This document shows positions 7,349 to 19,085 of a stretch of DNA of 33,583 nucleotides, piece after piece. A model generated the notes under the pieces. It saw only the letters and a program-made list of their open reading frames with translations, was not told where the DNA came from and did no database searches. Origin of the DNA: a bacterium (GTDB lineage: Bacteria; Patescibacteriota; Microgenomatia; UBA1400; PJMF01); contig JAQBYG010000007.1 of assembly GCA_027620445.1 (NCBI GenBank), forward strand, positions 1-33,583, written 5' to 3'. Both the position numbers and the translations under genes were made by a program. Each line of letters starts with the position of its first letter. Within the stretch, counting starts at the first letter, position 1.

Positions 7349-7366
7349 TCGCGGCACTGCCTTGTT

Positions 7367-7439
7367 GGGTCCGTAGCTCAGTCGGTAGAGCAGAAGCCTT
7401 TTAAGCTTTGTGTCCCGGGTTCGAGTCCCGGCGGACTCA
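7367..7439 (+). tRNA. tRNA-Lys (anticodon UUU)
   Basis: A complete cloverleaf: acceptor GGGTCCG pairs with CGGACTC (one G-T pair), the D arm is GCTC/GAGC, and the anticodon stem GAAGC/GCTTT carries the 7-base loop CTTTTAA with anticodon TTT. The T stem is CCGGG/CCCGG with loop TTCGAGT. The discriminator base is A. The 3' CCA is not encoded as such, so it would be added by the nucleotidyltransferase. Confidence 0.97.
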
Positions 7440-7464
7440 CCCTTGATTTCTAGCCTGGTTCCAG

Positions 7465-16170: not shown

Positions 16171-18555
16171 ATGAACACAACACAACAATCGAATCATTGG
16201 CTCGATGCAGTCACCGCAAGGTTGCTCGAGTGGCAAAAAAAAGAAGCGATCGAAAAACTACATGTTGATGACATGAAAACTCCGTCCGGGCGAGTGCACA
16301 CCGGGGCTTTGCGCGGCGTAGTACTACATGATTTGGTAGCCAAAGCTCTCTCTACAGTTGCAACGGCCCAAATCACCAACACCTACGTGTTTAATGACAT
16401 GGACCCTATGGACGGATTACCGAGTTATCTGCCGGCAGCCAAGTTCGAAAGGTACATGGGCGTTCCCCTCTACAAAATTCCGGCACCGAGTATCGAAGAA
16501 TCCGGAGTTGATTTTTCGAATGCATCAGCTGTAGAAAAAACCCGCTACAAAAATGCAAGCAGCTTTGCTGAGTTTTATGCCTTTGACTTTATCGATGCGT
16601 TTCAGCGACTCGGCTGCTCACAAGAAATTATTTGGAGTCACGAACTGTATGAGTCTGGCAAAATGGACACGGTGATCAAAACAGCCCTCGACTCGATTGA
16701 ACAAATTCGCACAATTTATAAAGAAGTAGCCGATTACCAACTCCCTGACAGCTGGTACCCATTCCAAGTGACCTGTCCTACTTGTGGCAAAGTTGGCACC
16801 ACCCTCACTACAAACTGGGATGGAAAAGAGGTGTCGTTTGAGTGCCAACCAAGCAAAGTGACCTGGGCAAAAGGATGTGGGCACAAAGGATCTATCTCAC
16901 CATTTGGCGGCACAGGTAAATTGCTCTGGAAGGTCGATTGGCCAGGTCACTGGACAGCTCTAGGAGTTACGGTCGAAGGCGCTGGCAAAGATCACACAAG
17001 TGCGGGTGGCTCTCGAGACATGGCAAATGCCCTCTGCGCTCGAGTATTTGGAATCACCCCGCCATTTGATATTCCGTATGAGTGGATTCTCATCCGTGGC
17101 GCAAAAATGAGCTCGAGTAAAGGAGTCGGCACATCTGCCAGAGAGTTTGTTCAGCTGTTTCCACCAACCGTCGGGCGGTTTTTATTTGCGAGCAAAGACT
17201 ACAACCAAGTCATCGACTTTGACCCGGCATCACTGTCTATTCCCGACCTTTTCGATGAGTACGACCAAGGTGCGCGAATTTTTTGGAAACAAGAAGAAGG
17301 TGACCAGCGACTTGCCCGTGCCTTTGAGCTTTCACAAAATGGCGAAACTCCGACAGGACACTTTTTGCCTAGATTCCGTGATGTTGCGCTCTGGATGCAG
17401 CACCCTGAAATTGATTTAGTCGAACAATTTTCTCAGATTGCCGGTGCGCCACTAAGCTCAGAGGAGTTGGAAGAGTTAGAACTGCGTCGCCTGTATGCAG
17501 AAAAATGGGTGCAAAGCTATGCACCAACAGAGTATCAGCTACGGCCAAAAGCAGAACTGCCAGAAGAGGCAAATGCGCTTACTCAAGAAGAGCGCGCATT
17601 TCTGCGAGATGCAATCGATGTAACTGCAAAAAAAGAATGGGACCCTGCGGAGCTGCAACAAGCATTATTCGAGTTGGCAAAACGAGGCATCGGGCCAAGA
17701 AAAGCTTTCCAAGCTATCTATCTAGCGTTCTTAGGTAAGAAATCTGGACCGAGAGCTGCTTGGTTTTTGCTCTCGATTGAGCCGGGGTTGCGTACCAAAC
17801 GGATTGCAATGTTATTTGAGAAAAAACAGGAGAGCTCTGCTAGTTACAAGTTCTCTAATGAGGCACGTCCCGGGATTTTAACAATCTCAGATTCTATACG
17901 CCAACACTATCCATCACTCATCATCGGCACTGCCATCATCAAAGGGGTGACTATTGCTGAGAGCTCAAAGGAGCTGCGAGATAAGTTGCAAAGCACATAT
18001 GATGCCGTGCAGGGAATCACAACAGCACAGATCAATGAATCAGTAAAAATTCAGTCCTATCGTCAAGCAATAAAGCAAAGTGGCATAGACTGGCACTCGC
18101 GTCGTCCAACCATGGATGCGCTGCTCAGAAGAATTGGAAAAGGTCAGCTCCCTCCGTCAATCAACAATGTTGCAGACATTGGCAACTTGCTAGCTGTCAA
18201 ACATCAAATGAGCCAAGGGCTATTCGACTTTGACAAAATTTCTACCCCAATTATTTTTAAGGAAGCCGTTGGTGGAGAAACAGCAATACTCTTTGGAAGC
18301 AATGAACCACTTGAATTAAAGGCTGGAGAGATTTGTTACTTTGATGCAATTGGTCCATTTGCGGTTGATCTCTGTTGGCGTGACTCACAGCGAACCAGTG
18401 TGACAGAAAACACGACCAACCTGCTAATACAAACAGAGGGTGTCTTTGACATTACGAGACAACAAGTTGAAACTATGCTACAAGACCTCATCGACCACAT
18501 TACACAATATGCTGGAGGTGTTGTAGAGTATGCAGGAATTACAGAAACAACATGA
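16171..18555 (+). CDS. lysS: Class I lysyl-tRNA synthetase fused to a B3/4 editing-type domain
   Basis: A 794-residue protein. Residues 1 to about 550 are a class I (archaeal/spirochaete-type) lysyl-tRNA synthetase. The HIGH-like motif is TPSGRVHTG (37-45), zinc-type cysteines are CPTC (202-205) with Cys225 and Cys236, and the catalytic KMSSSKG is at 312-318. The alpha-helical cage-like anticodon-binding region follows. Residues about 565-785 are a B3/4 domain, the fold of the editing domain in the beta subunit of phenylalanyl-tRNA synthetase and of free-standing trans-editing proteins. Matching segments are SYRQAIKQSG, RRPTMDALLRRIGKG, SINNVADIGNLLAV, FDFDKIS, and LKAGEICYFDA. Class I LysRS is normally about 500-550 residues and lacks this. 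The start is ATG 16171, after AAGGA. Its TGA overlaps the ATG of the HD gene (ATGA). The hydrolysed substrate is unknown; a mischarged tRNA is the natural guess. Confidence 0.92.
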   Translation: MNTTQQSNHWLDAVTARLLEWQKKEAIEKLHVDDMKTPSGRVHTGALRGVVLHDLVAKALSTVATAQITNTYVFNDMDPMDGLPSYLPAAKFERYMGVPLYKIPAPSIEESGVDFSNASAVEKTRYKNASSFAEFYAFDFIDAFQRLGCSQEIIWSHELYESGKMDTVIKTALDSIEQIRTIYKEVADYQLPDSWYPFQVTCPTCGKVGTTLTTNWDGKEVSFECQPSKVTWAKGCGHKGSISPFGGTGKLLWKVDWPGHWTALGVTVEGAGKDHTSAGGSRDMANALCARVFGITPPFDIPYEWILIRGAKMSSSKGVGTSAREFVQLFPPTVGRFLFASKDYNQVIDFDPASLSIPDLFDEYDQGARIFWKQEEGDQRLARAFELSQNGETPTGHFLPRFRDVALWMQHPEIDLVEQFSQIAGAPLSSEELEELELRRLYAEKWVQSYAPTEYQLRPKAELPEEANALTQEERAFLRDAIDVTAKKEWDPAELQQALFELAKRGIGPRKAFQAIYLAFLGKKSGPRAAWFLLSIEPGLRTKRIAMLFEKKQESSASYKFSNEARPGILTISDSIRQHYPSLIIGTAIIKGVTIAESSKELRDKLQSTYDAVQGITTAQINESVKIQSYRQAIKQSGIDWHSRRPTMDALLRRIGKGQLPPSINNVADIGNLLAVKHQMSQGLFDFDKISTPIIFKEAVGGETAILFGSNEPLELKAGEICYFDAIGPFAVDLCWRDSQRTSVTENTTNLLIQTEGVFDITRQQVETMLQDLIDHITQYAGGVVEYAGITETT

Positions 18556-19085
18556 CACTTCCAACCCGCCAAGCATCTCAAGAAATGGTAGCAGAGTACA
18601 TCAAAAATCCTGCGCTGCTTAAGCATTGTTACATGGTGGCGGCAGCTATGGAAGCATACGCCAAAGACCTCGGCGAAGACAGTGAGTTGTGGTATCAAGC
18701 GGGACTGTTGCATGACCTCGACTGGGAAGCGTATCCCGACGAACACCCCAACAAAGCCATTGCTGAAATTCTGAGTGATTACCCAAGCGAACTTCTGCAA
18801 GCAATTGCTGCGCATGCTCCCGATCGCACTGGCAAAAAGCCCGAGACAAAGATTGAGTGCTATTTATTTGCTTGCGACGAGCTATCAGGTCTCATGCACG
18901 CCGTCTCGCTCATGCGTCCTAGTGGATTTTCTGATATGGAACCAAAATCCATCAAGAAGAAGCTCAAAGACAAATCATTTGCCGCCAACGTGAGCAGAGA
19001 AGATATTAACCAAGGTTTTGAACTCATCGGTAAAACACCCGATGAGCATATCGCGTTTTTGATCGCGGTATTTCAAAATGAGTAG
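18552..19085 (+). CDS. HD-domain phosphohydrolase
   Basis: A 177-residue single HD domain, a metal-dependent phosphohydrolase fold. The metal ligands appear in order: His25 (LLKHCYMV), His54-Asp55 (GLLHDLDWEAYPDEH), then His65 and His88 (AIAAHAPDR), with Asp109 (ACDELSG) near the end of the core. This spacing is typical of small HD proteins that act on nucleotides or cyclic nucleotides. The substrate cannot be told. It is translationally coupled to lysS by an ATGA overlap and followed 9 bases later by serS. A link to tRNA charging or nucleotide clean-up is possible but unproven. Confidence 0.8.
   Translation: MTLPTRQASQEMVAEYIKNPALLKHCYMVAAAMEAYAKDLGEDSELWYQAGLLHDLDWEAYPDEHPNKAIAEILSDYPSELLQAIAAHAPDRTGKKPETKIECYLFACDELSGLMHAVSLMRPSGFSDMEPKSIKKKLKDKSFAANVSREDINQGFELIGKTPDEHIAFLIAVFQNE

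Follow-up and report, generated by a model that had tools for sequence, protein, structure and literature searches.

A class I lysyl-tRNA synthetase fused to a CtdA-like B3/4 domain in Patescibacteria: a putative self-editing enzyme

The locus and its class I LysRS

We analysed a stretch of 33,583 nucleotides of contig JAQBYG010000007.1 (assembly GCA_027620445.1), called the window in the following, from a member of the Patescibacteria with a tiny genome. It carries a gene for a class I lysyl-tRNA synthetase (LysRS1) that continues at its C-terminus into a B3/4 domain (Table 1). The coding sequence is a single uninterrupted frame of 794 codons from an ATG at 16171 to a stop codon at 18553-18555, as an initial annotation had proposed.

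The same annotation had assigned the N-terminal part to class I LysRS by its HIGH-like and KMSSSKG motifs. This was borne out by the NCBIfam profile TIGR00467 (lysS_arch), which scored 307 bits over residues 9-538 at a cut-off of 147.55 bits, and by the conservation of the motifs in 46 fused homologues, where H43-T-G-A, K312-MSSSKG and the cysteines 202, 205, 225 and 236 were invariant or nearly so. Pfam tRNA-synt_1f matched residues 9-389 with an E-value of 2e-81, and the solved LysRS1 1irx aligned to residues 9-546 (E 9e-60). Thus the catalytic and anticodon-binding parts of LysRS1 extend along the whole of residues 1-549. The described enzymes stop at that point and no editing domain has been described for them, while the window protein continues into the B3/4 domain. 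The added part comprises about 230-245 residues, rather more than the 220 or so first ascribed to B3/4; the B3/4 assignment itself was confirmed by profile and fold (see below).

Because its motifs are intact and no second complete LysRS was found in the source genome (909 kb, 96% complete), we infer that the class I part charges tRNA-Lys. The bacterial class II LysRS profile matched only a 335-residue class II core in that genome, which resembles EpmA/GenX (L191:1432-2439; G000:C4:4461-5381). Its gene adjoins a gene of radical-SAM appearance. At Rfam gathering scores only tRNAs were detected, and there was no riboswitch or T-box near the LysRS gene.

Table 1. Features of the fusion gene and its surroundings, and loci with B3/4 domains on other synthetases
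Feature	Location	Strand	Remarks
LysRS1-B3/4 fusion coding sequence	16171..18555	+	794 aa, stop codon counted in; homologous fusions in relatives
Class I LysRS body, residues 1-549	16171..17817	+	catalytic core and anticodon-binding helices; TIGR00467, tRNA-synt_1f, 1irx
HIGH-like motif HTGA, residues 43-46	16297..16308	+	no exchange of H43 or G45 among 46 homologues
KMSSSKG signature, residues 312-318	17104..17124	+	read from translation; conserved in fused homologues
Linker joining LysRS body and B3/4 domain, residues ~550-565	17818..17865	+	contains homology breakpoint; from model confidence and identity drop
Complete CtdA-like B3/4 domain, residues 566-794	17866..18552	+	Pfam B3_4 core at 18061-18450
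HD-domain hydrolase gene	18552..19085	+	4-base overlap (ATGA) with LysRS stop
tRNA-Lys (TTT)	7366..7442	+	expected substrate tRNA; sole tRNA-Lys of window
ArgRS with N-terminal B3/4	L045, L046, L081, L082, L084-L086, L176, L177, L180, L193, L194, L196, L199-L202, L205-L210
TyrRS with N-terminal B3/4 (n=5)	L030 (G033), L173 (G362), L174 (G126), L179 (G293), L181 (G443)
Triple fusion YbaK-type tRNA_edit, B3/4 and TrpRS (n=2)	L175 (G143:C91), L195 (G541:C13)
MetRS with C-terminal B3/4 (n=2)	L178 (G293:C3), L192 (G542:C2)

The B3/4 domain

A domain search of the C-terminal region returned Pfam B3_4 (PF03483) at residues 631-760 with 66.1 bits (E 3.8e-18), above the cut-off of 29.3 bits. The source genome has only one other B3/4 domain, located in a separate frame of 676 aa taken as pheT. 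An AlphaFold2 model of residues 551-794 reached a predicted local distance difference test (pLDDT) score of 94.5 and a predicted template modelling (pTM) score of 0.91. In the model of the protein with a pTM of 0.68, the linker was below a pLDDT of 50 at residues 552-557. The best structural match of the modelled domain was CtdA with a Z-score of 25.3 over 224 residues, compared to a Z-score of about 19 over about 182 residues for the beta subunit of phenylalanyl-tRNA synthetase (PheRS). Foldseek likewise ranked CtdA (E 2e-15) before PheRS (1e-10 and weaker). Furthermore, a profile built from the fused domains matched the CtdA structures PDB 9mkl (2e-11) and 9f7e (6e-11) before PheRS-beta. PheRS as the nearest relative was ruled out, since CtdA scored higher in both sequence and structure. 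Thus the expectation of a PheRS-type B3/B4 fold held for the fold, while the closest solved relative is CtdA and not PheRS-beta.

CtdA is a stand-alone enzyme that deacylates canavanyl-tRNA-Arg, as demonstrated in vitro and in vivo, and the paper describing it does not mention fusions (PMC10018355). The window domain shares with CtdA the B3/4 fold over its entire length, the kinship to PheRS B3/4 and the polar residues N672, D669, E703, D725, R737 and T742. On the other hand, it is fused to LysRS, is only 15% identical and belongs to a separate lineage, whose members deviate from the CtdA type at the signature positions S681, F685, P693 and D738. Invariant columns in 80 LysRS-type domains include R654, N665, D669, N672, G683, D725 and D738. 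The B3/4 domain of PheRS-beta has the same fold, belongs to the same Pfam family and is an editing module on a synthetase; yet its structural score is lower and it is an outgroup on the tree. In addition, the residues that we take to form the tyrosine-editing pocket of PheRS, a His (Tth 261) and a Glu (334), are not retained in the LysRS-linked domains, which have G683 at the His position and Q at the Glu position. CtdA likewise lacks the editing His and Glu of PheRS.

From sequence, model and analogy to these deacylases we consider it likely that the window protein is a self-editing LysRS, in which the B3/4 domain hydrolyses misloaded tRNA-Lys. Alternatively, the domain might be catalytically dead and serve as an extra binding or positioning module that raises the affinity for tRNA-Lys. 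The C-terminal position beside the anticodon-binding part and the lack of conservation of the PheRS substrate-pocket residues would be compatible with such a role, and B3/4 folds have other functions elsewhere, as the structure matches included LRRC47 on the human 40S subunit. Yet the strictly conserved polar residues match those of the active CtdA, and retention of the domain through swaps between unrelated synthetases (see below) fits better with catalysis. We thus regard a mere binding module as unlikely.

Recurrence, lineage and the subtype in the window

Scanning 84,980 species genomes yielded 80 loci; 69 of them are LysRS fusions of class I and 9 of class II, and the other 2 are cut by contig ends. 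The complete LysRS-B3/4 fusions, 78 in named genomes, were all from Patescibacteria except one; the hosts were Roizman-, Gottesman-, Levy-, Davies-, Woese-, Beckwith-, Pace- and Dojkabacteria, WWE3, CPR3 and others. The exception, L151 (JAMCYH010000215.1), is labelled Deltaproteobacteria. Its fused LysRS nests inside Gottesmanbacteria and the contig is probably mis-binned. In the source family 7 of 42 genomes had the full fusion and 20 had LysRS1 without B3/4. Complete LysRS-type domains in long frames occurred in about 50 of the 374 genomes of a class sample; these frequencies are sample-based, and the fusion partners of the long frames were read in part. Every LysRS-type domain seen within a complete gene was fused, and none was seen alone or on another synthetase in the scanned loci and the class sample. 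One class I LysRS of Roizmanbacteria (L119:1355-4684, 1109 aa) has two tandem B3/4 domains of differing subtypes.

Because the contigs are metagenome-assembled, a merger of two genes by assembly or gene calling was considered. It is extremely improbable: the identical joint was present in many independent assemblies, the complete chromosomes CP011210 and CP066689 among them, and the downstream gene is the same in fused and unfused relatives. In two congeners (G035 and G036, independently assembled) and in other genera the fusion recurs, flanked by the same genes. Comparison of fused and unfused relatives places the B3/4 segment, about 240 codons long, precisely at the junction of LysRS and the HD-domain gene. 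An assembly artefact was therefore ruled out and the fusion recognized initially is genuine.

A tree of 84 B3/4 domains, obtained by a short tree search, united the LysRS-linked domains in one group with a Shimodaira-Hasegawa-like approximate likelihood ratio support of 87, and of 95 for a core of 35 rows. A single clade of all LysRS-linked rows including the outlier L074 was not rejected (p 0.29). A clade of the class II-linked rows was rejected (p 4e-40); they were interleaved with the class I-linked rows. With the LysRS-linked domains being one lineage and a class II-linked clade rejected, the domain has therefore moved between two synthetase folds that have only lysine and tRNA-Lys in common. 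It is lysine specificity and not the synthetase fold that the domain follows. A single lineage on both LysRS classes, not seen alone in a complete gene or on another synthetase, is the strongest evidence for an action on aminoacyl-tRNA-Lys. Together with the structural closeness to CtdA it supports the initial idea that mischarged tRNA-Lys is proofread. The recurrence of the same domain on both unrelated kinds of LysRS suggests a proofreading step for which lysine enzymes were not known.

As the nearest solved relative works on tRNA-Arg, the domain could also edit another tRNA, e.g. canavanyl-tRNA-Arg as CtdA does, and be merely parked on LysRS. We think this very improbable, since the LysRS-linked lineage stood apart from the CtdA-like proteins of Pantoea and Rhizobium and from solo and ArgRS-linked domains on the tree, and has the distinct signature positions named above. 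Moreover, the genome G009 has a solo CtdA-like gene besides its LysRS fusion, and ArgRS possesses its own B3/4 fusions.

While the LysRS body of the window is 75-81% identical to that of congeners, its B3/4 domain is less than 31% identical. Against G036, identity per 50-residue block was 58-98% up to residue 550 and 19-34% beyond; at the linker identity to the congener dropped from 76% to 27%. The congeners G035 and G036, on the other hand, showed an even likeness along the whole length. The window domain grouped with G045/L093 (Beckwithbacteria, a second member of the order), supported at 99%; its grouping with copy one of the tandem pair in L119 was loose. A single inheritance of the domain within the source family, i.e. 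one clade, was rejected (p 3e-6). The comparisons indicate that the window domain is a divergent subtype that was swapped in at about residue 550. It has G at position 671 and C at position 735, where nearly all other LysRS-linked domains have Y and N, and because of these residues its amino acid specificity may differ. The two exchanges, along with an identity of only 27-46% to the other LysRS-linked domains compared, could also be read as signs of a decaying or re-purposed copy, such that proofreading would apply to the wider family and not to the window subtype. Yet the frame is intact, the confidence of the model is high and the subtype is maintained, as it is common to G045/L093 and, loosely, to the first tandem copy of L119. 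Decay is thus a rather improbable explanation.

Proposed function and related fusions

In the self-editing LysRS that we propose, the class I part would charge tRNA-Lys and the C-terminal B3/4 domain would cleave the ester bond of tRNA-Lys bearing a wrong amino acid, modelled on the action of CtdA on canavanyl-tRNA-Arg and of PheRS B3/4 on Tyr-tRNA-Phe. A short flexible tether would keep the deacylase near LysRS, so that hydrolysis might occur in cis before release of the tRNA or just after it. Three features speak against a rigid geometry of the PheRS kind: the flexible linker, the uncertain orientation of the domain and, in L071, an HD domain inserted ahead of B3/4. The leading guess for the amino acid removed would be a cationic look-alike of lysine (ornithine, thialysine, hydroxy- or methyl-lysine), presumably taken up from the host or the surroundings, with Ser/Thr next. 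Class II LysRS is credited with pre-transfer editing, by which it removes the homocysteine, homoserine and ornithine that it activates (PMC7373986), while ProXp-ST1 and ProXp-ST2 edit Ser/Thr-tRNA-Lys in trans (PMC7373986, PMC11295145). The latter resemble the proposed enzyme in clearing mischarged tRNA-Lys; they differ in being free-standing, in their INS-type fold, unrelated to B3/4, and in their broad tRNA range.

Several observations weigh against this proposal. The editing His and Glu of PheRS are not retained, and in the model of the protein (pTM 0.68) the position of the domain with respect to the active site is uncertain. The window copy departs at conserved positions, with A781 in place of C in addition to the exchanges Y671 to G and N735 to C. 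Finally, some 20 unfused LysRS1 of the source family do without the domain, which is thus dispensable there.

If the proposal is true, a LysRS with a built-in deacylase would fill a gap in the quality control of translation and would be relevant to fidelity in host-dependent, amino acid-scavenging bacteria. The presence of one domain lineage on two unrelated LysRS folds makes misacylated tRNA-Lys directly testable as a substrate. In keeping with the initial annotation, which knew of no LysRS-B3/4 fusion, we found no earlier description of synthetase-B3/4 fusions; the literature covered was partial, with few subscription journals and preprints, and does not establish their absence.

Related B3/4 domains were also present on other synthetases of Patescibacteria (Table 1). 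More than 20 ArgRS with an N-terminal B3/4 domain were read; their single origin was rejected (one clade, p 7e-4). The ArgRS fusion is an obvious candidate for built-in editing of canavanyl-tRNA-Arg. The TyrRS frame of L181 ends inside TyrRS (402 aa). A published list of synthetases with editing domains includes none of ArgRS, TyrRS, TrpRS and MetRS (PMC11415595). With some reserve we favour the view that Patescibacteria gave B3/4 deacylase modules of varied specificity to synthetases described without an editing domain, namely LysRS of both classes, ArgRS, TyrRS, TrpRS and MetRS, including a new tRNA-Lys-directed lineage that passed between the LysRS classes, and that the window variant was swapped in with a possibly new specificity. 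The fusions supply candidate modules, ready for use, for the editing of tRNA-Lys, tRNA-Arg, tRNA-Tyr, tRNA-Trp and tRNA-Met.

The HD-domain gene adjoins LysRS in relatives with or without B3/4 and is fused to LysRS in a few (L163, L070, L071). Because it also lies downstream of unfused LysRS (15 of 20), it was ruled out as a B3/4-specific partner. Some LysRS fusions additionally bear the HD protein, DUF2000 or a second B3/4 domain. DUF2000 (PF09391) was found in the class II LysRS-B3/4 fusions L161:2441-5113 and L071:1-2619, the latter being the one with the HD domain before B3/4; against the PDB it gave only a marginal match to a hypothetical protein. The occurrence of both families in class II LysRS-B3/4 fusions hints that DUF2000 and the LysRS-adjacent HD family may act on tRNA or with LysRS.
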